Source: an uncultured Pelagibacteraceae bacterium (GTDB lineage Bacteria; Pseudomonadota; Alphaproteobacteria; Pelagibacterales; Pelagibacteraceae). Taken from it: a DNA stretch of 58,864 bases. The stretch covers positions 1 to 58,864 of the forward strand of contig CACIUF010000003.1 in the NCBI GenBank assembly GCA_902589765.1. The letters are read 5' to 3'. The notes below the pieces were generated by a model, which had not been told where the DNA came from, made no database searches, and saw only the letters and a program-made list of their open reading frames with translations. Both the position numbers and the translations under genes were made by a program. Shown one piece after another: positions 10,840 through 37,478 of this stretch (position 1 is its first letter; every line of letters starts with the position of its first letter).

Positions 10840-11907
10840 ATGAAAATAAAATTAGGAAAAAAGATTATTTCACAAAATTCTAAAACTTATTTCATTGCAG
10901 ATATTGCTGCCAATCATGACGGAAATCTTTCTAGGGCAAAAAAATTAATTAAACTTTGTGCGAAAGCGGGAGCAAACGCAGCTAAATTTCAACATTTTAA
11001 AGCTGAAACTATAGTCAGTGATTATGGTTTTAAAAAATTAGGTAAACTAACTCACCAAAAAAAATGGAAAGAAAGTGTTTTTGAAACATATAAAAAAGCA
11101 AGTATTAATCCTGATTGGACTCCCATTCTTTATAAAGAATGCAAAAAAAATAATATTGACTTTCTTACATCACCATATGACTTAAATTATGTGGATGAAG
11201 TAAATAAATTCATTCCGGCTTATAAAATTGGATCTGGTGATATAACTTGGAAAGAAATTATTATTAGAATATCAAAAAAGAAAAAACCTGTATTTTTAGC
11301 AACAGGAGCATCAGATTTAAACGAGGTAAAAAAAACCATTAAAGAGATATTAAAACACAATAAACAAGTTTGCGTTATGCAATGTAATACTAACTACACA
11401 AATAGTTATAAAAATTTTGAAAACTTAAATCTAAATGTAATAAAATCTTATAAAAAACTTTTCAAAGAAAATGTAATTCTTGGCCTTAGCGACCATACGC
11501 CTGGACATGTTAGTGTTATAGGTGCAGTTGCTTTAGGTGCTAAGGTGATTGAAAAACATTTTACGGATAATAATAATCGTTATGGACCAGATCACAAATT
11601 TTCAATGAATTTTTCATCATGGAAAGAAATGGTGGATCAAACTAGAATTTTAGAGAAGGCACTGGGTGATGGAAATAAAAAAGTTGAGAATAATGAAAAA
11701 CAATCTGTAATTGTTCAAAGAAGAGGAGCTTGGCTTAAAAAAGATGTAAAAAAAAATGAGTCTTTAACACTTAATAAAATTAACTTTCTAAGGCCTTGTC
11801 CTAAAAATTCAATTGATATTTTTGAAATTAATAGACTCATCGGAAAGAAATTTAAATTTAATATGAGCAGGAATTCATTAGTTACAAAAAAATGTCTGAT
11901 GAAATAA
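10840..11907 (+). CDS. neuB: N-acetylneuraminate/pseudaminate/legionaminate synthase family protein
   Basis: This full-length NeuB-type synthase (355 residues) condenses phosphoenolpyruvate with a 2,4-diacetamido or N-acetyl hexose to give a nonulosonic acid. The barrel motifs are IADIAANHDGN, AAKFQHFKAETI, FLTSPYD, KIGSGDITW, LATGASDLNEV, MQCNTNYT and LSDHTPGHV, with EKHFTDNN before the C-terminal domain. Residues from about 290 onward (VQRRGAWLKKDVKKNESL...) are the SAF domain. It overlaps the following glycosyltransferase by 16 bases. With the PseB-like enzyme at 12604 it suggests pseudaminic- or legionaminic-type acids, but the acetyltransferase, hydrolase and a clear CMP-transferase for that route are not in the window. 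Confidence 0.87.
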   Translation: MKIKLGKKIISQNSKTYFIADIAANHDGNLSRAKKLIKLCAKAGANAAKFQHFKAETIVSDYGFKKLGKLTHQKKWKESVFETYKKASINPDWTPILYKECKKNNIDFLTSPYDLNYVDEVNKFIPAYKIGSGDITWKEIIIRISKKKKPVFLATGASDLNEVKKTIKEILKHNKQVCVMQCNTNYTNSYKNFENLNLNVIKSYKKLFKENVILGLSDHTPGHVSVIGAVALGAKVIEKHFTDNNNRYGPDHKFSMNFSSWKEMVDQTRILEKALGDGNKKVENNEKQSVIVQRRGAWLKKDVKKNESLTLNKINFLRPCPKNSIDIFEINRLIGKKFKFNMSRNSLVTKKCLMK

Positions 11908-15401: not shown

Positions 15402-16898
15402 ATGAATGGTAGTAATATTTTGGCTAAAAAATTAGAGGAGATTATTCTTAAAAAATATCACAATATAAGTCTCGATCAGGTAAGAAATGATATTGACAGA
15501 ATAATTAATAGTTTCTCAAGAAGACCATGGGTATTACAAGAAAATATTTTTAATAAAATAAACCTTAAAAACAAAGAATATTTAATAGATCTTAATAAGA
15601 TAATAAGAGAAAGCGAAAAATTACAAATATTAATAACAAAAAATAGTGCTGCAAAAAAATATTGGAATACAATCTTACCATTCTCTCACAGAGTTAATGA
15701 TGTAATAAGAAATAATTATAAGTATCCCTTGAGAATTGCTATTTTTCCAGGAGTTTCTTGTATGTTTTTTTGTGGTTTCTGTGGAAGAAATCAAAAAGCA
15801 AAATATGAAAGCTCAATAATCGATGATGGAATTAATAAAATTAATAATATGATTTCTGAAGCAGATATAGGGACTAAAATCTCTATATCTGGAGGCTTAG
15901 AGCCTCTTACAAATCCGAAACTTGGAAGTATTATTAAGACAGGCTCAGATCGTGGATTTAAACTTCCACTTATTACAAATGCATACTCCCTAACAGATAG
16001 TTTTGTAAAAAAAAATCCAGAAATATGGCTTCTTGATTCTTTAAGAATTTCACTTTATGGACATGATGACCAATCCTACAAAGATATTACACAACTTGAT
16101 AAAAGTTTCAAGATGGTCAAAAAAAATGTAATAAATTTTTTAAAATCCAGAAATGATATAAATAAAAATTTAAAAGTTGGATTTAACTTTATAATTTTAC
16201 CAGAAAATTATAAAGATTTAAAGAATGTGCTATTGCTTATTAAGGAAATTAATTCTGAAGTAAAAAATGGTGAAGGTATAAATTTTTTAACTCTAAGAGA
16301 TGATTATCAAAGTGTCACTGGACAAGATGAAAATTATGATACAGAAAGAAAGTATAGATTGAACAATGGCATGACAGACCAAAATAGAGAGGATCTGTTA
16401 AAAATTATTGAAAACTTTGAGGAACTAAAAAGTGAATATTGTCCACGTTTACATGTAGATTACGGCTATTCATTAGAGTACTTATCTCAAAAAATATTTG
16501 ACAGAGGCCTTGTTAAAATAAAAGGAGAAGAAATTAGATCATTTGGTTTTTCCCAGCTATCCGTGGCTGTTGATCTACATGGAGATATTTTTTTATTTAG
16601 AGAGGCAGGTTTTTTGAATCGTCAAGGAAATAAAAAAGTTATAATTGGAAGACTTGGTAATGAAGTAAATTCGTTAGAAAATAATATAAAAAATTTTTTA
16701 AAAAGAAATGAACCGATTAAATTTGAAAAAAATGACTCAAGATTTCTAGACTCATTTGATCATGTACTAAATGCTTTAGTAAACCAAGCTGAGGAAGATG
16801 AAAAATTTGGAATACCATTAAGCTTTGGTCCAATTGCCTTTAAAAATTTTGATAATAAAGAGTCATTGGGGAACAATTGGTATTCGGATGACATTTAA
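15402..16898 (+). CDS. Radical SAM protein of unknown reaction
   Basis: This 498-residue protein has the cluster-binding CX3CX2C motif in PGVSCMFFCGFCGRN near residue 120, then ISISGGLEPLTNP (the GGE-like SAM-binding strand) and LRISLYGHDD, all typical of the radical SAM barrel. There is a long helical N-terminal part of about 110 residues and a C-terminal extension with VAVDLHGDIFLFREAG resembling the oxidised-product end of SPASM-like proteins, but without an obvious Cys cluster. The operon context suggests radical chemistry on a sugar or cyclitol; the reaction cannot be named from sequence. Confidence 0.8.
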   Translation: MNGSNILAKKLEEIILKKYHNISLDQVRNDIDRIINSFSRRPWVLQENIFNKINLKNKEYLIDLNKIIRESEKLQILITKNSAAKKYWNTILPFSHRVNDVIRNNYKYPLRIAIFPGVSCMFFCGFCGRNQKAKYESSIIDDGINKINNMISEADIGTKISISGGLEPLTNPKLGSIIKTGSDRGFKLPLITNAYSLTDSFVKKNPEIWLLDSLRISLYGHDDQSYKDITQLDKSFKMVKKNVINFLKSRNDINKNLKVGFNFIILPENYKDLKNVLLLIKEINSEVKNGEGINFLTLRDDYQSVTGQDENYDTERKYRLNNGMTDQNREDLLKIIENFEELKSEYCPRLHVDYGYSLEYLSQKIFDRGLVKIKGEEIRSFGFSQLSVAVDLHGDIFLFREAGFLNRQGNKKVIIGRLGNEVNSLENNIKNFLKRNEPIKFEKNDSRFLDSFDHVLNALVNQAEEDEKFGIPLSFGPIAFKNFDNKESLGNNWYSDDI

Positions 16899-18931: not shown

Positions 18932-19945
18932 ATGAAAAAATTTTACCCACCATATTTAAAAGATGAATTTGCTAAATCATTAAATTTAAGAAAAAAACTT
19001 ACATTTAAAGCTTCTGAAGATATTTATTCCTTAACTCCTCCTTTTCCAAGAGAGATCACATTAGATATTAACAATCGTTGCAATCATAAGTGTTATTTTT
19101 GTGCTAACCCAAAAATCAGGGAGTATGACTCTTTAGATTTAAAGTTAGCATTTAAATTGATGCAAGAAGCAAAAGAAAATGGTTCAACTGATCTTGCTTT
19201 ACAAGCAACCGGAGAACCTTTTATGGATAAAAGATTACCTGAATTTATAAAGGAAGGAAAAAGATTAGAGTTTGATTATATTTATATAAATACCAATGGT
19301 GCATTAGCAAACTCCAAACGAGCAAAACCAGTGATTGACGCAGGTTGTGATAGCATCAAGTTTTCGATCAATGCTCATAACAGAGAGGACTTTAAAAGAG
19401 TTCATGGTTATGATGATTTTGATAAAGTTATAGAAAATTTAAAATGGATTTTTAATTATAGAAATGAAAATAATATAAAAATGGGTATTTATGTTAGTAC
19501 AGTTAAAAATTCTAAAACAGATTTTGTAGCTGAAGACATAGAAAAAGTTATTAATGCAAATTGTGATAAGTTTGAGTTTAGAGAAATTAGCAATCAGGGT
19601 GGTGGGATGATGGAATTAAAAGATACAGAGGATATTAAGGAGGGAAACGTGCTAGGTAGTCTTAGAGACGACGATGTCATGTCTAGATGCGTTTATCCTT
19701 TTAATAGATTGGTTGTAAACCCACACGGCTTTGTGGTTGCATGTACAGCTGATTTTCATAAAAAACTTGAGATTGGAGATACAACAAAAAATACTTTAAC
19801 AGAAATTTGGAATGGTAAAAAATTTCAATACTTAAGAAAAAAACATCTTGATAAAAAATTAGACAATTTGTTTTGTAACAAGTGTATTAATAATATTGAA
19901 TGTAAAACAACAAATTTAAATGAAGCTTTTGAAAAAAATTTATAA
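18932..19945 (+). CDS. Radical SAM protein with C-terminal SPASM domain
   Basis: This 337-residue enzyme has the CX3CX2C cluster motif in DINNRCNHKCYFCANPK near residue 50, QATGEPFMDKRL as the SAM-binding strand, and IKFSINAHN. A C-terminal Cys cluster starts at CVYPFNRLVVNPHGFVVAC and ends CNKCINNIEC, marking a SPASM/twitch domain with auxiliary Fe-S clusters. Such enzymes modify peptides, sugars or cyclitols, including dehydrogenation of aminocyclitols. The next gene, four bases on, is a PLP aminotransferase. It is the first gene after the promoter/operator candidate. Confidence 0.83.
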   Translation: MKKFYPPYLKDEFAKSLNLRKKLTFKASEDIYSLTPPFPREITLDINNRCNHKCYFCANPKIREYDSLDLKLAFKLMQEAKENGSTDLALQATGEPFMDKRLPEFIKEGKRLEFDYIYINTNGALANSKRAKPVIDAGCDSIKFSINAHNREDFKRVHGYDDFDKVIENLKWIFNYRNENNIKMGIYVSTVKNSKTDFVAEDIEKVINANCDKFEFREISNQGGGMMELKDTEDIKEGNVLGSLRDDDVMSRCVYPFNRLVVNPHGFVVACTADFHKKLEIGDTTKNTLTEIWNGKKFQYLRKKHLDKKLDNLFCNKCINNIECKTTNLNEAFEKNL

Positions 19946-19948
19946 AAG

Positions 19949-21019
19949 ATGTTTAAACCTCATATACAAAAACTTGTAAGACTCCAAACATCTGAAAATC
20001 GTGATATAAAAAGAGGGATTCTTTTAGATAGAAATGAGAGAGTTGAAAATTATAATGAAATTACTTATAGAAAAATTGTAAGGTCTATTTCAAGATTTTC
20101 GATTAATGCAACTCCTGACATTCAAAATTTATATAAAAATTTATCTAAATTCTTTAAAATCAGCAAAGACAATATTTACATAGGTCAGGGTATTACAGAA
20201 CTTATGTCACAAATAATTTTTAGCCTTGTAAAAAAAAATGAGGAGGTTGTGATAATGGATCCAACTTATCCTATGTACGAAGTTTTATGCAAATTAAATC
20301 AGGTAAAAATAAAGAAATGGAAATTTAATAAGGAGTGGTTACTGGAATTTAATGATTTAAAAAAAATTATTACTAAAAAAACAAAAGTAATTTTTTTAGT
20401 CAATCCAAATTTACCAATAGAATTTGAATTTGATAAAAATTTAAAAAATAAGATCTATAAATTGTGTTTGAAAAAAAATATTATACTTGTATATGACGAA
20501 GCTTATTATCATTTCGGTTCTAAATCTGAAATTAAAAATTCTACTAAAAAAAAAAATTTAATTGTTATGCGAACATTCTCAAAAGCTTGGGGTTTACCAA
20601 GTATTAGACTGGGATTTTTAGTTACAAATAGGAAGTTGTGTGAATATATTTCAAAGTGTAGATCATTAGTAGAGACAAATGCATTATCTTATCAAATCGC
20701 TATGTGGGCGTTGAATAATAGAAAAATACTCGATAATCATGTTTCACAGATAAAAAAAGGATCTAAATATATTCAAAGAAGTCTCACAAAACTAAATGTC
20801 TTTTTCAAAGGTGGTAACGTTACAAATGCAGTTCTGATAAGATTGAGAAATAAAAAAGATACAGAAAATCTAAGATTATTTATGCGAAAAAGGAAAATTT
20901 ATATAAGAACAAATTTTAAAGATAAAATTGAAAATTGTATTAGAATAAGTTTAGGTCCAGTAGATAAAATGAAGATTTTTATTAACGAATTTAATAATTG
21001 GCTAAAAATTAGAAGATGA
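19949..21019 (+). CDS. HisC-like class I/II PLP aminotransferase
   Basis: The 356-residue fold-type I aminotransferase resembles histidinol-phosphate aminotransferase: DPTYPMYEV, FLVNPNLP, IILVYDEAYYHF with the cofactor Asp, and the Schiff-base Lys in RTFSKAWGLPSIRLGF. The family transfers amino groups to phosphorylated or cyclic keto compounds. Its tight spacing to the radical SAM gene and 4-base overlap with the next gene suggest it belongs to the island pathway and not to histidine synthesis. The substrate is unknown. Confidence 0.78.
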   Translation: MFKPHIQKLVRLQTSENRDIKRGILLDRNERVENYNEITYRKIVRSISRFSINATPDIQNLYKNLSKFFKISKDNIYIGQGITELMSQIIFSLVKKNEEVVIMDPTYPMYEVLCKLNQVKIKKWKFNKEWLLEFNDLKKIITKKTKVIFLVNPNLPIEFEFDKNLKNKIYKLCLKKNIILVYDEAYYHFGSKSEIKNSTKKKNLIVMRTFSKAWGLPSIRLGFLVTNRKLCEYISKCRSLVETNALSYQIAMWALNNRKILDNHVSQIKKGSKYIQRSLTKLNVFFKGGNVTNAVLIRLRNKKDTENLRLFMRKRKIYIRTNFKDKIENCIRISLGPVDKMKIFINEFNNWLKIRR

Positions 21020-22314
21020 ACAATGAAATAAATTATGTTCAATTATCTCTAATAAAAAAATCTCAAAAATATTTAAAAAATTGTGAAAGAAAAGGTATAA
21101 ATATTGCTTTGAGCCCATTTTGTGATTTAACAACATGGATAAATAGTCTCGGGTACCAAAAGCTTCATCTAATCAATAAAAATAAACTTCTTAGTTTAGG
21201 TTATATTAGATATTTTTTTTCAGAAATTATAAATATAGGTAGATTTAAATTTGATTACTATGTTTATAATGGTCTGCCAAATAAAAAAAAAATAAATATA
21301 ATTTATTCATATTCTTGGAAAAAAAATTTTAAAAAAGGTATTTTTTTTGATGATTATTTTAAGGTAAATTCAGAAGATAAAAATTTTTTTTTTATATTAA
21401 ATTCTGTCGATGGTTTTTTGCCCAAAAAAGCTAAAAACTGTATTATAATTACAAGAACCAAAACATTTTTTAATCCTATATTTATCTTTCATTATTTATC
21501 AAGAAAAATTTTTTACAAAAATTTTTTTCATGAATTTAATTCAACTAATATTTTTAATGAATTTGTTAATAAAGTTGTGCAAAATGAATTTCAAGACAAA
21601 AGAGTAAATATCTTGATTCCTTTTGAAAATAGACCTCATCAAAATGCTTTTATATTAGCTTCAAATAGTAAAAATAATAAAAACAGAATAATTTGCTATT
21701 TACATAATATGCCATGGCCATTCCAGTTAGATATGATTTATAAAAAAATAAAAATTGATAAATTACTTGTTTGTAGCGATATTCAAAAAAAAGTGTTTAT
21801 TAAAAATTATCTCTGGCCTAAAAAAATTGTCCAAACAATATCATCATTAAGATTTAAAACATTAAAAAACAGAAAAAAAACAATTTTTTTACCATTTGAT
21901 TTGACAGAGGATAATGAAAAACTATTAGATGGATTTAAAGTTTTAATTTCAAAAGTTTTTTTCGATTTAGATAATTATAAAATAAGTATTCATCCCTTAA
22001 AAGTATTTGCTAAAGATCATATCAATTTTAAAAAAAAATTATTAGAAATAGTAAAAAATTCAAAAAAAAAAAATTTTAAAACTAAAAACACAGACCCAAT
22101 TATTTTTTCACATCCAGGGGGGACAGCAACAGAGTGTTTGCAAGTTTGTAAATCTACTTACCATATTACTACTGATAAATTACATGTCTTTAGTAAAAAA
22201 ATTTGGAATTCAATCAAAATTTCAAGAATAGATAGAAACGTTTACAAGTATGTTTCAAAAAATACCAAATTTCTTATTTTGGACAAAAAAAATAGTATAA
22301 AAAACTTAATATGA
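21016..22314 (+). CDS. Unrecognised island protein, possibly GT-B-like
   Basis: I do not recognise this 432-residue protein. It has no signal peptide and no clear membrane helix. The second half has YLHNMPWPFQLDMI, SIHPLKVF, and SHPGGTATECLQVCKSTYHI near residue 365, where a Gly/Thr-rich turn followed by a helix resembles a nucleotide-sugar pocket of GT-B folds. It is locked into the block by 4-base overlaps on both sides (aminotransferase before, SDR after). A transferase or ligase role is conjecture. Confidence 0.5.
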   Translation: MNNEINYVQLSLIKKSQKYLKNCERKGINIALSPFCDLTTWINSLGYQKLHLINKNKLLSLGYIRYFFSEIINIGRFKFDYYVYNGLPNKKKINIIYSYSWKKNFKKGIFFDDYFKVNSEDKNFFFILNSVDGFLPKKAKNCIIITRTKTFFNPIFIFHYLSRKIFYKNFFHEFNSTNIFNEFVNKVVQNEFQDKRVNILIPFENRPHQNAFILASNSKNNKNRIICYLHNMPWPFQLDMIYKKIKIDKLLVCSDIQKKVFIKNYLWPKKIVQTISSLRFKTLKNRKKTIFLPFDLTEDNEKLLDGFKVLISKVFFDLDNYKISIHPLKVFAKDHINFKKKLLEIVKNSKKKNFKTKNTDPIIFSHPGGTATECLQVCKSTYHITTDKLHVFSKKIWNSIKISRIDRNVYKYVSKNTKFLILDKKNSIKNLI

Positions 22315-23051
22315 CAAAATTTTTAAAAAATGTATTAATTACTGGTGCTGGAAAAGGAATAGGTGAAGTTACAGTTAAACTTTTTTTGTCCAAAGGCTAT
22401 TTTGTATATGCACTTATTAAAGATAAAAAAGATAATTTTAAATTTAAAAATTATAAAAATATCTTAATATTTAATGGAGATGTAAAAGATATTAAATTGA
22501 TTAAAAAGATTATCTCAAAATCGAATAACAATAATAAAGTTATTACTGGTTTAGTAAATAATGCTGGAATAAGACATAGAAAAAAATTTCTTGATATTAG
22601 AAAAGATGATTTAGAAAATGTATTTCAAACAAATTTTTTTTCTATATTTCAACTAATGCAATTATTTTCAAAAAACTTAATAAAAAAAAAATTATCAGGT
22701 TCAATTGTAAATATTTCATCAATTGTAGGACAAACTGGTTTCGATGAACTGGCCTCTTACGGCTCCTCTAAAGGTGCATTAATTTCCTTAACAAAATGTT
22801 TTGCTGTTGAGATGGCAAAAAAAAACATTCGTTCTAATTCGATCAGTCCCGGGTTTACTAAAACAACTTTTTATAAGCCTTTTAAAAAAAATAAAAAGAA
22901 ATTGTATTCTTGGACTCTTAGCAGAATTCCTCAAAAAAGATGGGGAGAACCAAAAGAAATTTCAGAGCTAATTCATTTTTTAATCTCTGACAATTCAAAT
23001 TATATCACGGGAGAAAATATAAATATTGATGGAGGATGGTTAAGTGCCTAA
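22311..23051 (+). CDS. Classical short-chain dehydrogenase/reductase, FabG-like
   Basis: The 246-residue SDR has GAGKGIGEVT as cofactor motif, NNAGIR, the catalytic Ser in IVNISSIVGQ, YGSSKGALISL as Tyr/Lys, NSISPGFTKT and a late SNYITGENINIDGGW. It is of the size and type of 3-oxoacyl-ACP reductases and sugar or cyclitol dehydrogenases. Its position between an unknown protein and a KdsB-like transferase argues for oxidation or reduction of a sugar-like intermediate. It overlaps the next gene by 8 bases. Confidence 0.8.
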   Translation: MTKFLKNVLITGAGKGIGEVTVKLFLSKGYFVYALIKDKKDNFKFKNYKNILIFNGDVKDIKLIKKIISKSNNNNKVITGLVNNAGIRHRKKFLDIRKDDLENVFQTNFFSIFQLMQLFSKNLIKKKLSGSIVNISSIVGQTGFDELASYGSSKGALISLTKCFAVEMAKKNIRSNSISPGFTKTTFYKPFKKNKKKLYSWTLSRIPQKRWGEPKEISELIHFLISDNSNYITGENINIDGGWLSA

Positions 23052-23793
23052 AAAAGTTTTAGGTCTAATCCCCATTCGGTATAATTCAAAGCGATTACAT
23101 GGTAAAGCATTACTTTACATAGATCGTCTCCCAATGGTTGTTCATGTTTACAGAAGAACTAAAATGTCAAATTTACTAGACGATGTGATTGTTTGTTGTG
23201 AAAACAAAAAAGTTTATGAAGTTCTAAAAAAATATAATTGTAAATCAATTTTTACTTCAAAGAAACATAAAAATGGAACTGAGAGAATTGCAGAGGCATA
23301 TAAAAAAACAAAAAAAAAGTATGACTTGGTTATAGATATACAAGGAGATGAACCGTTAGTGGATCCTAAACAAATTGACAATGTAATCAAATTTCACTTA
23401 AAAAATTTTTCTTCAGACATTGTTGTTCCGTCATTAAAAATACCATTAAGTGAAGATCATAATATTGTGAAAATTGTCAAAGATAGAAATTTAAATGTTC
23501 TATATTTTTCAAGATTAAAAATCCCTTATGGATTTAAAAATAAAAACAAATATTTAAACAAACATTTATCAATAATATCATTTAGACCTAAAGCCCTTCT
23601 CCAATTTGCTAGTGCAAAACAAACTTATTTAGAAAAAATTGAAGGTATTGAGCTTCTAAGAGCTTTAGAGATAGGTATGAAAATTAAGTCTCCTAATTTA
23701 CTAGGTGACAGCTTTGCAGTTGAAGTTAAAAGAGACTATATAAGAGCAAAAAATTATATTAAATCTGATAAATTTTATAAATTTTATAAATAA
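23044..23793 (+). CDS. KdsB-like CMP-sugar synthetase (cytidylyltransferase), divergent
   Basis: It resembles 3-deoxy-manno-octulosonate cytidylyltransferase, which activates Kdo with CTP. Motifs are IPIRYNSKRLHGKAL (KdsB usually RLPGKPL), SKKHKNGTERIAEA, VIDIQGDEPLV and VLYFSRLKIPYG. The C-terminal stretch where KdsB carries the metal-binding VDTP-like motif reads FAVEVKRDY here, so a substrate different from Kdo is likely. The start is GTG at 23044, inside the SDR gene. Standard Kdo activation is presumably encoded elsewhere. Together with the AroB-like gene next door it may activate an unusual acid or cyclitol. Confidence 0.78.
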   Translation: MPKKVLGLIPIRYNSKRLHGKALLYIDRLPMVVHVYRRTKMSNLLDDVIVCCENKKVYEVLKKYNCKSIFTSKKHKNGTERIAEAYKKTKKKYDLVIDIQGDEPLVDPKQIDNVIKFHLKNFSSDIVVPSLKIPLSEDHNIVKIVKDRNLNVLYFSRLKIPYGFKNKNKYLNKHLSIISFRPKALLQFASAKQTYLEKIEGIELLRALEIGMKIKSPNLLGDSFAVEVKRDYIRAKNYIKSDKFYKFYK

Positions 23794-23798
23794 AAATA

Positions 23799-24938
23799 AT
23801 GAAAATTAATTACAAGATTGAAAACGAAAATTTTAAAGTAACATTTTGTCCAGACAAACAAAAATTAAGTATTAAAAATAAAAAAAATTCGTACATGCAA
23901 ATTTCAAAGGACCTAAAAAAACTTAACCATGATAATAAAATTTTATTAGTTATTGATAAGAATATAAATAATAAAATTATAAGATATATAATTAATGACT
24001 TAAAATTATCATTTCCTGATTTAAAAATTTTATATGTACTTGGAAGTAAAAAAAATAAAAATCTAAAGACATTTTTTAAAATAACGGATAGATTATTCAA
24101 AGAAAAATTCTCAAAAAATTCAGTATTAATCTCTTGTGGCGGTGGAGTAATAGGTGATGTTTCTGGATTAGCTGCTTCTTTATATTTAAGAGGGTTAAAT
24201 TATTACCATATCCCAACAACTATGACAGCTATAATTGATAGTTGTATTGGGGGTAAAAATGGAATTAACTTTAAAAATATTATCAATTCAATAGGAACCT
24301 ATTATCATCCGACAAATGTATATATATCAAAAACTATTATACATCATTTACCTAATAGAGAATATATCTCAGGCATTCCTGAAATAATCAAATGTGGATT
24401 GATAGATAAATCAGATTTACTTAATTACATAAAAATTAAAAATAAGATTATTCAAAGAGATTTTTCATTTATATCTAAAATAATCAAAAAAACTTTGGTA
24501 TCAAAAATTAAATTTTTTAAAAATGATGTAAAAGAAAAAAATAATAGATTAATGTTAAACTTTGGTCATACTTTTGCACATGCGATTGAGTCATCTTTAG
24601 ATAATAATCTTTCTAATAAAGCTGAAATCCTTAGACACGGCGAAGCAGTCGGTTTGGGATTGTTATGTGAAATTTATTATAAAAATGGAAAAAATAAAAT
24701 TTTTCACCAAATAAAAAACTTATTGGATTTATATTCATTACCAACAAATCTTAAATTTATAAAAATGAATAAAAGTTTATTAAAAAAGGAGATTTTTAAA
24801 TATATTTTTTTAGATAAAAAAAAAATTGGCAAATTCCCAAGATATATAGGTTTGAAAAATATTGGTCGTCCGAAAATATTAGAACTCTCAAATAATACAA
24901 AGATTAAAAATACTATATTAAATGTTTTATTCAGTTAA
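23799..24938 (+). CDS. Sugar-phosphate cyclase, 3-dehydroquinate synthase-like (AroB family)
   Basis: This 379-residue enzyme of the AroB/EEVS/DOIS superfamily cyclises phosphorylated sugars using NAD and a metal. Conserved features are GGGVIGDVSGLAAS, LRGLNYYHIPTTMTAIIDS, GGKNGIN, PEIIKCGLID (metal Glu and Lys), LNFGHTFAHAIE and LRHGEAVGLG (metal His residues). The stretch after GGK reads FKNIINSIG where AroB usually has a Gly-Lys-Asn, hinting at another substrate. Context (KdsB-like, SDR, aminotransferase, radical SAM) also argues against the shikimate pathway. It overlaps the next gene by 17 bases. Confidence 0.8.
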   Translation: MKINYKIENENFKVTFCPDKQKLSIKNKKNSYMQISKDLKKLNHDNKILLVIDKNINNKIIRYIINDLKLSFPDLKILYVLGSKKNKNLKTFFKITDRLFKEKFSKNSVLISCGGGVIGDVSGLAASLYLRGLNYYHIPTTMTAIIDSCIGGKNGINFKNIINSIGTYYHPTNVYISKTIIHHLPNREYISGIPEIIKCGLIDKSDLLNYIKIKNKIIQRDFSFISKIIKKTLVSKIKFFKNDVKEKNNRLMLNFGHTFAHAIESSLDNNLSNKAEILRHGEAVGLGLLCEIYYKNGKNKIFHQIKNLLDLYSLPTNLKFIKMNKSLLKKEIFKYIFLDKKKIGKFPRYIGLKNIGRPKILELSNNTKIKNTILNVLFS

Positions 24939-26022
24939 AAATTTTAAAGTTTTTAGAAATAAAACTGTAATTATAACTGGTCATACTGGATTCAAAGGCG
25001 CTTGGTTATCTTTTTGGTTAAAAATATTAGGAGCTAAAATAATCGGAATATCTCTAAATATACCAACAAAACCATCACTTTTTGAGATAATCATTGGTAA
25101 CAAACATATTAAGAGTTACAGATGCGATATAAAAAATTTCTTTAAAGTAAAAAAAATTATTTTAAAACACAAACCAGATTTTGTTTTTCATTTGGCTGCC
25201 CAAGCTTTGGTTAAAAAATCTTATATAAATCCTTTACTTACCTGGAACTCAAATTTGTTGGGAACAGTGAATTTATTAGAGAGTTTAAGACATTTAAAAA
25301 AAAATTGTATTGCGGTAATTATAACAAGCGATAAGAGTTATAGAAATTTAGAAATTAAAAAAGGATATAAGGAAGAAGATCAGTTAGGTGGACATGATCC
25401 ATATAGTGCATCAAAGGGGGCAGCAGAATTTGCAATAAGTTCATATATAAATTCTTATTTTCAAAAAAAAAGTAAGGTCAAAATTGGTATTGCTCGGGCA
25501 GGAAATGTGATTGGTGGTGGAGATTGGTCCGAGGATAGATTATTACCTGACTGCATAAAATCTTGGTCTAAGGGTAAAAAAGTGAATATTAGAAATCCAT
25601 ATTCTACCAGACCATGGCAACATGTTTTAGAGGCCGTTTCAGGCTATATTTTATTGGCAGTAAAACTGAAATTAGATACCAAAATTCATGGAGAAGCATT
25701 CAATTTTGGACCCAGGTTAAGTCACAATTATTCTGTTTTATCTTTGCTAAATAGGATAAAAAAAATTTGGCCAGCTGTTTTGTGGTCGACTACAAATAAT
25801 AGAAAAAAATTTAAAGAGTCGAATTTACTTAAATTAAATTGCAATAAAGCAAAAAAGTTTATGAATTGGGAAAGTATATTATCGTTTGATGAAAATATTA
25901 ACATGACTATTGATTGGTATAGAGCCTATTATAAAAATAAAGATTCAAAAAAAATGAAAATATTTTCACAAAATCAAATTATTCAATTTACGAATTTTAT
26001 CACAAAAAGATCAAAAAAATGA
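24922..26022 (+). CDS. rfbG: CDP-glucose 4,6-dehydratase
   Basis: It converts CDP-D-glucose to CDP-4-keto-6-deoxy-D-glucose with bound NAD. The 366-residue sequence shows ITGHTGFKGAWLSFWL, HLAAQALVKKSYINP, ITSDKSYRN, the catalytic DPYSASKGAAEF, GNVIGGGDWSEDRLLPD and RPWQHVLE, all diagnostic of RfbG. The gene that makes its substrate, rfbF, follows with a 4-base overlap, and a probable downstream reductase follows that. No RfbH-type 3-dehydrase is visible, so the product need not be a 3,6-dideoxyhexose. Confidence 0.93.
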   Translation: MFYSVKNFKVFRNKTVIITGHTGFKGAWLSFWLKILGAKIIGISLNIPTKPSLFEIIIGNKHIKSYRCDIKNFFKVKKIILKHKPDFVFHLAAQALVKKSYINPLLTWNSNLLGTVNLLESLRHLKKNCIAVIITSDKSYRNLEIKKGYKEEDQLGGHDPYSASKGAAEFAISSYINSYFQKKSKVKIGIARAGNVIGGGDWSEDRLLPDCIKSWSKGKKVNIRNPYSTRPWQHVLEAVSGYILLAVKLKLDTKIHGEAFNFGPRLSHNYSVLSLLNRIKKIWPAVLWSTTNNRKKFKESNLLKLNCNKAKKFMNWESILSFDENINMTIDWYRAYYKNKDSKKMKIFSQNQIIQFTNFITKRSKK

Positions 26023-26711
26023 AAGTAGTTATATTAGCTGGAGGGATGGGTACAAGAATCTCTGAATATACAAAATCATTAATCAAGCCAATCCCAAAAC
26101 CAATGATTAAAGTAAATGGCAAACCAATTATTCATAGAATAATTGATCATTACATTAAGTATGGCCATAGAGAGTTTATTATAGCCTTGGGCTATAAAGG
26201 AAAATTAATTAAAAAATATTTTAAAAAAAAAAAATTTAAAGTAAAAATCAATATTAAATTAGTTGATACAGGATTAAAAACAATGACAGGAGGTAGACTA
26301 AAAAGATTAAAAAAATATTTAGATCGAACTTTTTTAATGACTTACGGAGATGGCTTATCAAATGTAAATATATCTAAACTAGTTAACTTTCATAAATCAC
26401 AAAAAAAACTGTTTACTCTTACCGCAGTAAGGCCACCTGCTAGATTTGGTGCAATCAAAATAGTAAACAATAAGGTAAAATATTTTAAAGAAAAATCAAG
26501 TTTAGATGAAGGTTGGATAAATGGTGGTTTTTTTGTTATTGAGCCAGAAATTTTTAGATTTATAAAAAATGATAAGTCCTATCTCGAACGGACTCCTCTT
26601 GAAAAAATTGCTAGTATTGGTGAGTTGTCAGCTTTTAGGCACAATGGATTTTGGCAATGTATGGACACTTTAAGAGATAAAGAAATTTTAGAAAAGAAAT
26701 TAAAAACTTGA
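26019..26711 (+). CDS. rfbF: Glucose-1-phosphate cytidylyltransferase
   Basis: This nucleotidyltransferase joins CTP and glucose-1-phosphate to form CDP-glucose. The N-terminal loop VILAGGMGTRISEYT, the KPIPKPMIKVNGKPI segment, LMTYGDGLSNV, VRPPARFGAIK and NGGFFVIEPE identify the RfbF group. At 230 residues it is about 25 shorter than the usual length, with losses spread over the chain and motifs intact. A run of 12 A (26223-26234) lies in the coding sequence without breaking the frame. The next gene overlaps it by 4 bases and uses a TTG start. Confidence 0.93.
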   Translation: MKVVILAGGMGTRISEYTKSLIKPIPKPMIKVNGKPIIHRIIDHYIKYGHREFIIALGYKGKLIKKYFKKKKFKVKINIKLVDTGLKTMTGGRLKRLKKYLDRTFLMTYGDGLSNVNISKLVNFHKSQKKLFTLTAVRPPARFGAIKIVNNKVKYFKEKSSLDEGWINGGFFVIEPEIFRFIKNDKSYLERTPLEKIASIGELSAFRHNGFWQCMDTLRDKEILEKKLKT

Positions 26712-27607
26712 GTAAATCTATTTTAATCGCTGGTGGGACAGGATTTATAGGGTTTCATTTAGCAAAAAAATGTCTAAGTTTAAATTGGTCTGTAACAAGT
26801 TTGTCAACTAATAAACCAAAAAAAAATAGAAAACTCAAAAAAGTTAATTACAAAATTTGTGATGTGTCTAATTATAATCAAATAAATAAAAAAATTAAGC
26901 CTGATTATGATTATGTTGTTAACTTAGCAGGATATGTAGATCATACTAATAAGCCAAAAACTATGAAAAGTCATTATATTGGATGCAAAAATTTATCAAA
27001 TTTTTTTTTAAATTCAAAAATTAAAAAATTTGTGCAAATTGGATCATGTATTGAGTATGGAAAGATTGAGTCACCTCAAAAAGAAATTAAGCAAAATAAA
27101 AAGACTTTTTCAATTTATGGAAAAGCTAAATTATTAAGTACTATATTTTTGCAAAACTTTTACAAAAAATACAATTTTCCAGTAACAATTCTTAGATTGT
27201 ACCTAGTTTATGGACCCTTCCAAGATACAAATAGGGTGATACCAGTTACAATAATTAACGCTTTAAAAAACAAAAGTTTCAATTGTTCAAATGGCCAACA
27301 ACTTAGAGATTTTACTTATATTGATGATATTATAAGTGCAATAATAAAAACTTTAAAGAATTTAAAATCTTCTGGGGAAATAATAAATATTGGATCTGGT
27401 AAACCTATTGCAATAAAAAAAGTTATAATTAAAATTTGTAGGTTACTCAATTCTGGAAAACCTCTTTTCGGTAAAATTGATTTAAGAAAAGATGAAATGA
27501 TGAAACTTTACCCAAATATAAATAAAGCAAAAAAAATTCTTAGATGGAATTCTCGTACTCCATTGGAAGTAGGATTAAGAAAAACTATCAAATTTTTCAG
27601 TAAATGA
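26708..27607 (+). CDS. CDP-sugar reductase/epimerase-like SDR, copy 2
   Basis: This extended SDR of 299 residues, paralogous to the gene at 17879, has GGTGFIGFHLAKK, VVNLAGYVDH, QIGSCIEYG, YGKAKLLST as Tyr/Lys, RLYLVYGPFQ and RDFTYIDDII. The TTG start at 26708 overlaps the rfbF stop. Directly following rfbG-rfbF, it probably completes a CDP-6-deoxyhexose by 4-keto reduction, as abequose/paratose-synthase-like or CDP-6-deoxy-hexulose reductases do. The stereochemistry of the product cannot be read from sequence. Confidence 0.8.
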   Translation: MSKSILIAGGTGFIGFHLAKKCLSLNWSVTSLSTNKPKKNRKLKKVNYKICDVSNYNQINKKIKPDYDYVVNLAGYVDHTNKPKTMKSHYIGCKNLSNFFLNSKIKKFVQIGSCIEYGKIESPQKEIKQNKKTFSIYGKAKLLSTIFLQNFYKKYNFPVTILRLYLVYGPFQDTNRVIPVTIINALKNKSFNCSNGQQLRDFTYIDDIISAIIKTLKNLKSSGEIINIGSGKPIAIKKVIIKICRLLNSGKPLFGKIDLRKDEMMKLYPNINKAKKILRWNSRTPLEVGLRKTIKFFSK

Positions 27608-28491
27608 AAAAAATAAGTGTAATTGTAAATTGTTTTAATGGAGAAAAATATTTAGAAAAATGTTTGAAAAGTATAATTAATCAAAAGTATTCAAATTTTG
27701 AGATAATTTTTTTCGATAATTTATCAACAGATAATAGTAAAGATATCGTTAAAAATATTAAGGATGATAGAATTCGATTATTTTCAAGTCAAAAAAAATT
27801 ACCTCTCTATGAAGCAAGAAATGAAGCTATAAATAAATCCTCAGGAGATTTAATTGCTTTTTTAGATGTTGATGACTGGTGGGATCCAGATTACCTCAAT
27901 AGTCGAGAAAAAGATTTTGATAACACTCAATATCAAATTTTTTATAATAATGCTTTTATGTTTTATGAAAAAAATGGAAAATATAAAAAATATAAGAATT
28001 ATATTTTACCAAATGGAAAAATATATAACGATCTTGCTAAAGATTATTCAATTATAATAAGTGGTTTAATTATTCGTCGAGATGTTTTTGATATAATTGG
28101 AAAATTTAATTCTAAATTTAATATAATTGGAGATTTTGATTTAATTATGAGGGCATCAAGATCTTTTAATTTTCACGCATTTGATACACCTTTGATTTAT
28201 TACAGAATTCATCAAAATAACTTTTCTAAAGAAAATACAAATATTTTTTTTGAGGAATATCTCTACTGGTATCAAAGCCAACTAAACTCAGAAAATGCGG
28301 ATTTTAGAAAAAATAAAACGTTTTTTAAAAATAGGTTACTCTTTCTTGAAATAAACCATTTACTCTTAAATAAAAAAAAAAATTTTTTTTTAATAAAGAA
28401 AATATTTGAATATCCTAATACAATTCAAATGCTAAAATTTATTATTGGTTTTATGCTTCCAAAAAAAATCATCAAGTTATTAAAAAAATGA
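27604..28491 (+). CDS. Glycosyltransferase family 2
   Basis: This 295-residue GT-A enzyme has ISVIVNCFNGEKYL at the N-terminus, FFDNLSTDNS and FLDVDDWWDPDYL with the DxDD metal site at about residue 90. FNIIGDFDLIMRA later corresponds to the acceptor/base region. It is of the type that extends O-antigen or capsule repeats in the cytoplasm. It overlaps the CDP-sugar reductase by 4 bases and may transfer that sugar. Confidence 0.87.
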   Translation: MKKISVIVNCFNGEKYLEKCLKSIINQKYSNFEIIFFDNLSTDNSKDIVKNIKDDRIRLFSSQKKLPLYEARNEAINKSSGDLIAFLDVDDWWDPDYLNSREKDFDNTQYQIFYNNAFMFYEKNGKYKKYKNYILPNGKIYNDLAKDYSIIISGLIIRRDVFDIIGKFNSKFNIIGDFDLIMRASRSFNFHAFDTPLIYYRIHQNNFSKENTNIFFEEYLYWYQSQLNSENADFRKNKTFFKNRLLFLEINHLLLNKKKNFFLIKKIFEYPNTIQMLKFIIGFMLPKKIIKLLKK

Positions 28492-37104: not shown

Positions 37105-37220
37105 GCCTGGTGATTATAGCGAAGAGGTAATACCCGATCCCATTCCGAACTCGGAAGTCAAGCTTTTCAGCGCCGATGGTACTTTGTCTTAAGACATGGA
37201 AGAGTAGGACTTTGCCAGGC
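37105..37220 (+). rRNA. rrf: 5S ribosomal RNA
   Basis: About 116 bases match the 5S pattern: terminal helix GCCTGG...CCAGGC, the conserved loop GAGGTAATACCCGATCCCATTCC, CCGAACTCGGAAG, and GCGCCGATGGTACT followed by a hairpin and GAGAGTAGG-like 3' half (GAAGAGTAGGACTTTGCCAGGC). No 16S or 23S sequence is adjacent: the gene upstream is a glycosyltransferase, so this 5S is separated from its operon. rpmJ begins 16 bases downstream. The ends may be off by one or two bases. Confidence 0.95.
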
Positions 37221-37362: not shown

Positions 37363-37367
37363 TTTTT

Positions 37368-37478
37368 ATGGATAACGAAAACCATAAGAAGACGTGGAAT
37401 AATTTTACAAAATTTGTATTGTGGGGAACTATCGCGGTAGTATTGGTATTGATATTAATGGCTTTGTTCTTGCTGTAG
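37368..37478 (+). CDS. aa3-type cytochrome c oxidase subunit IV (single-helix microprotein)
   Basis: The 36-residue protein has a polar N-terminus (MDNENHKKTWNNFTKF) and one transmembrane helix (residues about 16-36, rich in Val/Leu/Ala), the form of the small bacterial aa3-oxidase subunit IV family. In many alphaproteobacteria this gene sits just upstream of pntA, as here (nine bases). It would sit in the inner membrane with the terminal oxidase. Length makes it easy to miss; the identification rests on family shape and position. Confidence 0.75.
   Translation: MDNENHKKTWNNFTKFVLWGTIAVVLVLILMALFLL

Follow-up and report, generated by a model that had tools for sequence, protein, structure and literature searches.

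Gene organization at the locus

The subject of this analysis is a group of six genes in an uncultured Pelagibacteraceae bacterium of the SAR11 group (GenBank assembly GCA_902589765.1, contig CACIUF010000003.1, positions 1 to 58,864; this whole stretch of 58,864 nucleotides is called the window), and in particular the last three of them, which encode a short-chain dehydrogenase/reductase (SDR), a cytidylyltransferase resembling KdsB and a cyclase resembling AroB. The original prediction described the genes, here named A to F, as six tightly packed or overlapping genes that together may form one pathway for a cytidylyl-activated cyclitol or unusual ulosonic acid. All six open reading frames are indeed present on the forward strand, and the Pfam and NCBIfam models agree with the families first assigned to them: radical S-adenosylmethionine (SAM) with SPASM domain for A, HisC-like for B, no family for C, SDR for D, CTP_transf_3/KdsB-like for E and DHQ_synthase for F. 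The genes and features are the following.

18932-19945, + strand: A, BtrN-like radical SAM/twitch protein (radical SAM and SPASM; Pfam/NCBIfam and PDB match); optional module, proposed alcohol dehydrogenase
19949-21019, + strand: B, HisC-like pyridoxal-phosphate aminotransferase (TIGR01141, PDB HisC); optional, proposed to aminate the ketone of A
21016-22314, + strand: C, GT-B protein with an HP (histidine-proline) motif (structure model and homologue motifs); proposed transferase dependent on cytidine monophosphate (CMP)
22311-23051, + strand: D, SDR oxidoreductase (PF13561/PF00106); core, proposed to reduce the ketone product of F
23044-23793, + strand: E, KdsB-like CYTIDYLYLTRANSFERASE (PF02348); core, proposed to attach CMP to an alpha-hydroxy/keto-acid carbon
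23799-24938, + strand: F, AroB-like cyclase (PF01761/PF24621); core, proposed to form a carbocycle with loss of phosphate
24922-28491, + strand: downstream part of the operon, with rfbG (CDP-glucose 4,6-dehydratase), an rfbF-like nucleotidyltransferase, an NAD epimerase and a GT2 glycosyltransferase (TIGR02622, Pfam)
37106-37220, + strand: 5S rRNA gene, boundary of HVR2, the hypervariable island of SAR11 (Rfam RF00001, 92 bits)

From A to F the intergenic spacings are +3, -4, -4, -8 and +5 bases, the start codon of E is GTG, and a gap of 147 bases lies upstream of A. At the other end F and rfbG share 17 bases; rfbF, the epimerase and GT2 come next, each with a 4-base overlap, and because of these four overlaps the transcription unit probably extends past F into rfbG and three further genes. 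The coordinates of the six genes stand, but the operon probably does not stop at the last of them. The rfbG assignment rests on 452.7 bits for TIGR02622, and the other downstream genes were placed by Pfam. Comparison with a nearly identical locus, L034, gives more synonymous than non-synonymous codon differences for each of the six genes (17:5 in A, 33:5 in B, 34:31 in C, 11:4 in D, 11:5 in E and 28:5 in F), and from this follows that all six are real genes maintained by selection, with C as the one that changes fastest and has only a slight synonymous excess.

The cassette sits in an HVR2-type SAR11 surface island that is bounded by the 5S rRNA gene. A passage in PMC2217521 places the HVR2 of HTCC1062 between the 5S and 23S genes and ascribes mainly cell-surface functions to it. 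The G+C content of the window is 21-33% in 2-kb steps, and the named loci with the closest cyclases (at least 44% identity, one of them 99% identical) are Pelagibacteraceae or Pelagibacter records, except L036. Two NeuB/PseI-like synthase genes, under the cut-offs of their families, are found in the window at 799-1671 and 10840-11907. Another radical SAM gene of the island lies upstream, at 15402-16898; it is conserved in L034 and L041 and related to DesII (318.6 bits against a cut-off of 450). A pntA small RNA (RF01810) lies at 37364-37425, just past the 5S gene.

A three-gene cassette among changing neighbours

A scan of GTDB genomes for homologues of F gave 78 loci, of which L034-L059 and L083 grouped with F. 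Together with the window itself, L023 and L026, and after the re-fetched duplicates L015-L022, L024 and L025 had been dropped, they make up the 30 F-clade loci on which the counts below are based; among these L048 and L049 share an identical F, and the loci cut by contig ends include L045, L048, L049, L054 and L083. At E ≤ 1e-60, homologues of F occur in 13 of the 297 genomes of the family, the source genome included. D, E and F are contiguous in 27 of the 30 loci, and a homologue of D lies within 6.5 kb of F in all 30. The original prediction called for a search for the same six-gene neighbourhood in other genomes and took the six as one pathway unit. The genes do co-occur in other genomes, but the full set of six is present in only seven of the 30 loci, in one of which (L036) it is rearranged, with the A-B-C block inserted between E and F. 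The conserved unit is thus the three-gene cassette D-E-F among changing neighbours, with the upstream genes optional, and six genes as a fixed pathway were rejected, since only D-E-F is constant.

The cassette has also been found in an unclassified alphaproteobacterial cell (L056) and in a Prochlorococcus cell (L083, whose F is truncated at the end of the contig). L036 (PABV01000032.1) is a contig of 25% G+C from a metagenome-assembled genome (MAG) that bears the label Euryarchaeota; its cassette genes are SAR11-like, and it is probably a mis-binned SAR11 contig. A search of plasmids for F at E 1e-40 gave no match, and phage records yielded 14 matches at E 1e-10, all of them distant (26-34% identity). 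With flanks of 1.5 kb, neither D nor E was found next to the housekeeping AroB in any of 30 loci, and a weak SDR match next to the ordinary KdsB was seen in two of 30. NeuB-like matches occur in the available stretches of nine of the 30 loci, counting L083, which is the source of the NeuB query. In 17 of the 30 loci an RfbG with at least 40% identity is encoded near F (L055 has just a 26% match); RfbG is present in 43 of 99 family genomes regardless of the cassette, and the CDP-glucose genes rfbF and rfbG were rejected as specific cassette partners because RfbG is this common in the family anyway.

No family model, annotated record or open-licence PMC paper was found that treats an SDR, a KdsB-like and an AroB-like protein as a unit, and the view that no named pathway has this gene set held among these sources. 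The parts are of known kinds, and their combination is undescribed.

The cyclase F is a paralogue of 3-dehydroquinate synthase

That F is the only AroB of its genome, one part of what would have refuted the original prediction, was rejected: a separate AroB, 35% identical to F, is encoded at C2:78638 and scores 349.2 bits against the TIGR01357 cut-off of 305, where F scores 253.9. Against TIGR04425, the 'AroB-related putative sugar phosphate phospholyase (cyclizing)', F reaches 195.9 bits, under the cut-off of 400. In a maximum-likelihood tree of 83 proteins, 28 cassette F proteins and that of L057 form one clade with support 100/99, outside both the 29 canonical AroBs and the clade of viral and TIGR04425 proteins; the long-branched viral L114 adjoins the F clade with weaker support (94/83). 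The tree omits L034, and its comparison rows comprise 18 of the 51 other genome loci, the viral L114, and L102 and five viral proteins as separate rows. The F proteins of L026 and L057 exceed the AroB cut-off with 320.2 and 321.8 bits.

The 28 cassette F proteins were compared residue by residue with 29 usable canonical AroBs, two of 31 (L184 and L193) being unaligned and set aside. R131, D147, K153, N163, E195, K198, K236, E246, R250, N254, H257 and H280 are kept in all 28, H261 in 26 (Q in the other two) and K340/K341 in 27 (one gap). Among the positions that do not vary in canonical AroB, these are the ones with catalytic roles in 3-dehydroquinate synthase (DHQS); they include the zinc ligands and, in Aspergillus nidulans numbering, K250 and R264 near the carboxylate. 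The AlphaFold model of F (mean predicted local distance difference test, pLDDT, 90.3) gives a VIA Z of 44.0 to DHQS (root mean square deviation, rmsd, 2.2 over 354 aligned residues), compared to 39.5 for 2-epi-5-epi-valiolone synthase (EEVS), 39.1 for 2-deoxy-scyllo-inosose synthase (DOIS), 37.8 for desmethyl-4-deoxygadusol synthase (DDGS) and 27.6 for glycerol dehydrogenase; bacterial DHQS entries have Z values that overlap with the range of EEVS and DOIS (34 to 42), which makes the fold alone indecisive. By sequence scores and predicted fold F is closer to DHQS than to DOIS or EEVS. Because residues, scores and fold together are DHQS-like, a 2-keto-carboxylate resembling 3-deoxy-D-arabino-heptulosonate 7-phosphate (DAHP) appears more likely as substrate for F than glucose-6-phosphate or sedoheptulose-7-phosphate.

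F accordingly resembles AroB (TIGR01357) in its predicted fold and in the residues of the Zn/NAD and substrate sites, but forms a separate clade, scores below the cut-off, is linked to an SDR and a CMP-transferase and is a second copy in its genome. With the TIGR04425 cassettes it shares the SDR beside an AroB-like gene, as in viral loci, and the surrounding glycan genes, but F belongs to another clade, and those cassettes mostly have an aldolase or NeuB and an enzyme dependent on thiamine diphosphate (ThDP) instead of KdsB.

The cytidylyltransferase E and its replacements

E is likewise accompanied in the source genome by a canonical counterpart, a separate KdsB at C2:36317, which is 31% identical to E and with 188.5 bits above the TIGR00466 cut-off of 155.2; E itself scores 139.6 bits there and 216.8 bits for the broader subfamily model NF003952, over its cut-off of 193. 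Among 27 cassette E proteins, compared with 31 canonical KdsBs, the CTP/Mg residues R12, R17, K21, R81, D102 and H174 are kept in all, and the metal-site D227 in all except the window's own E. In the C-terminal domain the changes G176S, Y178I/V and Q204L are found in all 27, where the original residues are invariant in the 31 KdsBs, and position 225, a G in 30 of 31 KdsBs, is also replaced in all 27. A passage in PMC3149649 describes the C-terminal domain of KdsB as the part that binds Kdo (3-deoxy-D-manno-octulosonate). The KdsB-like enzyme had been called divergent, and it is so through replaced invariants where Kdo should bind. A tree separates canonical KdsB from all E-type proteins with support 100/99. 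In relation to CMP-Kdo synthetase (KdsB, TIGR00466), E thus keeps the residues for CTP and Mg but differs in the altered positions 176, 178 and 204, in its own clade and in its score below the cut-off.

E-type matches (1e-45) occur in 23 of the 297 genomes, the source genome included, and 11 of these 23 show no F. Nine of these 11 have a type of E called E2, and a gene of the haloacid dehalogenase (HAD) type adjoins E2 in eight cases and lies 1.8 kb away in L225/L237; the HAD neighbour in L228 was identified with Pfam, the others with tblastn or by eye. A tenth E2 protein, L233, comes from the L058 locus, where it is the second KdsB. The E2 proteins mostly share the altered pocket residues of E (8-10 of 10). 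In L236 the order is E2, HAD phosphatase, radical SAM and C, without F. Because the block of radical SAM and C here pairs with a phosphatase where the cyclase is absent, this layout is consistent with F also being the remover of phosphate in the cassette.

Three further related arrangements were seen. The pair of E2 and HAD-type genes (L224-L232, L236-L241) forms a recurrent SAR11 unit of its own, in which the pocket is mostly altered in the same way. In L234 and L235 there is an E-C pair without cyclase, and nearby genes resemble, as judged by eye, those for an AAC(3)-type acetyltransferase and a MaoC-like protein (both loci) and for FkbH (L234). An uncultured phage of 462 kb (L112, LR756500.1 122143-138829) encodes a KdsB-like protein that is 42% identical to E and retains the canonical G, Y and Q; no match to D or F was found beside its gene.

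In some loci E is exchanged for another protein. In SAR11 L026 and in the Ignavibacteria MAG L057, D and F occur with PseF-like CMP-transferases in the place of E, and in L102 (Aminicenantes, from the TIGR04425-side clade) the pair of SDR and cyclase adjoins a PseF-like protein too. PseF is the best NCBIfam model in all three, with 53.9 bits in L026, 65.4 and 55.6 in L057 and 95.4 in L102, all under the cut-off of 205.7. Judged by sequence, predicted CMP-ulosonate transferases of two unlike subfamilies accompany the pair of SDR and cyclase. Because PseF-like transferases can stand in for E beside this pair, CMP activation seems to be part of the pathway, and their presence would be hard to explain if neither the product of D and F nor a partner of it in this pathway were CMP-activated.

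The reductase D and the putative transferase C

The closest solved relatives of D are FabG-like SDRs, and D carries the motifs YGSSK and TGAGKGIG. C matched no Pfam or NCBIfam family. Its model (pLDDT 86.9) has the GT-B fold, with a VIA Z of 11.6 to UDP-N-acetylglucosamine (UDP-GlcNAc) 2-epimerases, above that to the polysialyltransferase 5wc6 (Z 9.8, rmsd 4.5, 250 aligned), and from this follows that the fold alone does not name a donor. In all 15 C homologues E204, Q209, N210, H230 and H326-P327 are kept, and E204 and H326 are 121-124 residues apart. According to passages in PMC2169525, bacterial sialyltransferases bind CMP and the carboxylate of the donor through the histidine of the HP motif and use the second acidic residue of D/E-D/E-G for catalysis; the corresponding residues of the NmB polysialyltransferase are H278 and E153, 125 residues apart. 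At the D/E-D/E-G site the C homologues have Y or F in the first position (15 of 15), E in the second (15 of 15) and G in the third (12 of 15), which departs from the motif. C hence looks like a candidate CMP-dependent GT-B transferase: like the bacterial CMP-sialyltransferases (GT38/52/80) it has the GT-B fold, the HP motif and a similar spacing, but it reads Y/F-E-G/N/S for D/E-D/E-G, and it may instead be related to the UDP-GlcNAc 2-epimerases, which rank higher. The earlier idea of activation followed by transfer to a surface glycan is strengthened by this predicted role.

A distant relative, C', is near the cassette in four further loci (three of them aligned, hhalign probability 96), so that C or C' is found near F in 18 of the 30. 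In L056, L055 and L051, which lack C, none of the proteins that neighbour F could be matched convincingly to C (hhalign probabilities of 0.1, 10.6 and 0.9).

The optional module of A and B

The best PDB match of A is BtrN (4m7s), with a whole-sequence E of 6e-13 made up from two stretches, the core (3e-4) and the auxiliary domain (2e-5). A has the CX3CX2C motif CNHKCYFC at position 50 and the auxiliary-domain cysteines C253, C271, C315, C318 and C324. BtrN is the radical SAM dehydrogenase of butirosin synthesis and, according to a passage of PMC9012708, oxidises a hydroxyl of 2-deoxy-scyllo-inosamine; by similarity over both domains A is a BtrN-like predicted dehydrogenase. B scores 200.3 bits for TIGR01141, under the cut-off of 276.55, and matches HisC in the PDB at E 4e-20; a separate HisC-like protein, 27% identical to B, is encoded in the source genome at C1:157755.

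Radical SAM matches were obtained in 14 loci before filtering, including a remnant in L050 and matches at least 4.7 kb from F in L057. An intact radical SAM gene, of three unlike kinds, lies beside the cassette in 12 of the 30 loci, all 12 of which have C. Its partner is an aminotransferase in seven loci, the only ones with an aminotransferase and always with the radical SAM gene adjacent to it; a second SDR in L040, L044 and L058; and neither in L047 and L059. The two kinds of partner, aminotransferase and second SDR, never occur together, and this pattern suggests that A makes a ketone, which would then be aminated or re-reduced. In L050 the interval from F to the second SDR holds, at 11120-11224, a remnant with just the first 35 residues of the radical SAM protein. 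The gene is complete at this place in L044, a close relative, and its loss in L050 is in progress.

Proposed pathway and its rivals

From the observed gene set, recurrence, paralogy, clade, conserved catalytic residues and predicted folds we infer every substrate, the order of the steps and the receiving glycan in the following scheme. We tentatively favour, with the chances somewhat against us, that the D-E-F cassette serves to make a carbocyclic 3-deoxy-2-ulosonic acid analogue, activated with CMP and bound for a SAR11 surface glycan. F, as a paralogue of DHQ synthase, would oxidise a DAHP-like 2-keto-3-deoxy-ulosonate phosphate by way of its bound NAD, eliminate the phosphate and close a cyclohexane ring, and the product would bear a C(OH)-COO- like the hemiketal carbon of an ulosonic acid. 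D would reduce the remaining ketone to give a quinate-like acid; A, followed by B or a second SDR, would turn one hydroxyl into an amino group, as in butirosin, or into its epimer; E, with its remodelled acceptor pocket, would place CMP on the C(OH)-COO- centre; and C, with its GT-B fold and HP motif, would attach the CMP-activated acid to the glycan. The cyclitol and the ulosonic acid that the original prediction gave as alternatives may then be one thing, a carbocyclic ulosonic acid. A wider proposal, which is doubtful, is that SAR11 glycans contain a class of carba-ulosonic acids, that is, quinate-type cyclohexane acids, sometimes aminated, made into CMP esters by a KdsB or PseF-like enzyme, where the class branches from the shikimate intermediate DAHP and is served by a GT-B pseudo-glycosyltransferase.

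Several points weigh against a carbocyclic product. The CMP ester of a carbocycle has no ring oxygen to stabilise glycosyl transfer and is therefore a poor donor, and because this oxygen is missing C could not act like a sialyltransferase unless the product were allylic or otherwise linked. The 11 E-positive SAR11 genomes without F have at 1e-3 a single match of 36-39% identity, as expected of an ordinary AroB, or none (G217), and in two of them, L212 and L215, E is followed by C and is nested inside the F-linked E clade. The altered pocket, as judged from sequence, probably marks a broader, non-Kdo acceptor class and is not specific for a carbocycle, and the two NeuB-like genes of the window could feed E with an ordinary ulosonic acid. 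F departs from AroB at the near-invariant sites K162 (replaced by I, T or V), Q170 (Q170H) and G260 (G260A); F168Y is another of its changed sites. The window's own proteins are also irregular: F has N154 for T, odd within the cassette set, in E the usual P is replaced by H19 and the metal-site D by E227, and C reads F-E-N at the D/E-D/E-G site.

The strongest rival to the carbocycle is a modified ordinary ulosonic acid with an oxygen ring, where NAD-dependent oxidation and elimination by F on an ulosonate phosphate, followed by re-reduction by D, would yield an epimerised or deoxy acid, to be activated by E and transferred by C in the conventional way. Such a normal CMP-ulosonate donor would suit E, C and the HP motif alike, and close relatives of E adjoin a HAD phosphatase instead of F. 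DHQS chemistry, however, proceeds from elimination to ring closure, and the full DHQS catalytic set is present in the 28 cassette F proteins, bar Q at H261 in two and the gap at K340/341 in one; we regard this rival as rather doubtful. It is unlikely that the operon serves two branches, one in which E activates an ulosonic acid of other origin, such as a product of the island's NeuB-like synthases, and another in which F and D produce a cyclic acid or cyclitol of their own as substituent or acceptor. The two NeuB-like genes in the window, the nine of 30 loci with NeuB-like matches and the occurrence of E without F speak for such a division. Against it, no block is conserved more tightly than D-E-F, where E lies in the middle, the D/F pair occurs with two unlike kinds of CMP-transferase, and NeuB-like genes are not a constant neighbour.

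The aminocyclitol logic of the original prediction survives in part, since the best solved relative of A is BtrN; a cyclitol of 2-deoxystreptamine or valiolone type is not supported, since F is DHQ-synthase-like in residues and fold. If F were a DOI or valiolone synthase acting on a hexose or heptose phosphate, to which A and B add amino groups, the cyclase, aminotransferase and BtrN-like radical SAM dehydrogenase would reproduce the butirosin set (a passage in PMC9012708 gives the BtrN reaction). This is quite improbable: F is nearer to DHQS than to DOIS and EEVS by sequence and fold, the carboxylate-binding positions are kept, and most cassettes lack A and B (an adjacent intact radical SAM gene in 12 of 30, an aminotransferase in 7 of 30). 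Enzymes of the KdsB family, moreover, require an acidic acceptor. We take BtrC and BtrS to be the butirosin cyclase and aminotransferase, and compared to the 2-deoxystreptamine set of BtrC, BtrS and BtrN the locus is alike in its BtrN-like A and in having both a cyclase and an aminotransferase, but differs in that F is DHQS-like and A and B are optional; the butirosin pathway is not known to include CMP activation. That F and E are housekeeping duplicates, a spare DHQ synthase and a spare CMP-Kdo synthetase on the island, is very improbable. The DHQS residues of F are intact and the F proteins of L026 and L057 pass the AroB cut-off, but canonical AroB and KdsB are already in the genome, D-E-F are linked and the pocket of E is changed.

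SAR11 bacteria are among the most abundant in the sea, and for their cell surface the cassette predicts a new monomer that can be tested for. If the carbocyclic reading is true, ring closure of the shikimate type feeds CMP-sugar chemistry, and the families of sugar phosphate cyclases and CMP-ulosonate enzymes are both extended. With C, a SAR11 family classed as 'unknown' becomes a candidate CMP-dependent transferase. A carba-ulosonic product, if shown, would be categorically new; otherwise the cassette consists of known parts in an undescribed combination.

Related gene sets in viruses and other bacteria

The alignment of cyclases also brought up 37 viral loci. In 36 of them (L115-L150, IMG/VR) an SDR gene lies directly upstream of the AroB-like gene together with an acetolactate-synthase-like ThDP gene; an HpcH-like aldolase precedes the SDR in 31 and a NeuB-like gene takes that place in four (L115, L116, L117 and L126). 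In the 37th, L114, F lies at a contig end. One tested neighbour in the viral AroB-like loci is UvsX-like. We regard these SDR/AroB-like loci as a phage cassette for sugar acids, of TIGR04425 type and as yet undescribed.

In several bacterial phyla (L060-L111 without L083) there is a set of aldolase and AroB-like genes, with an aldolase match in 42 of 51 loci and an RfbF match in 26 of 51. These sets possibly make branched or carbocyclic CDP-sugars, and bradyrhizose, as presented in a passage of PMC4743980, is a candidate for comparison.

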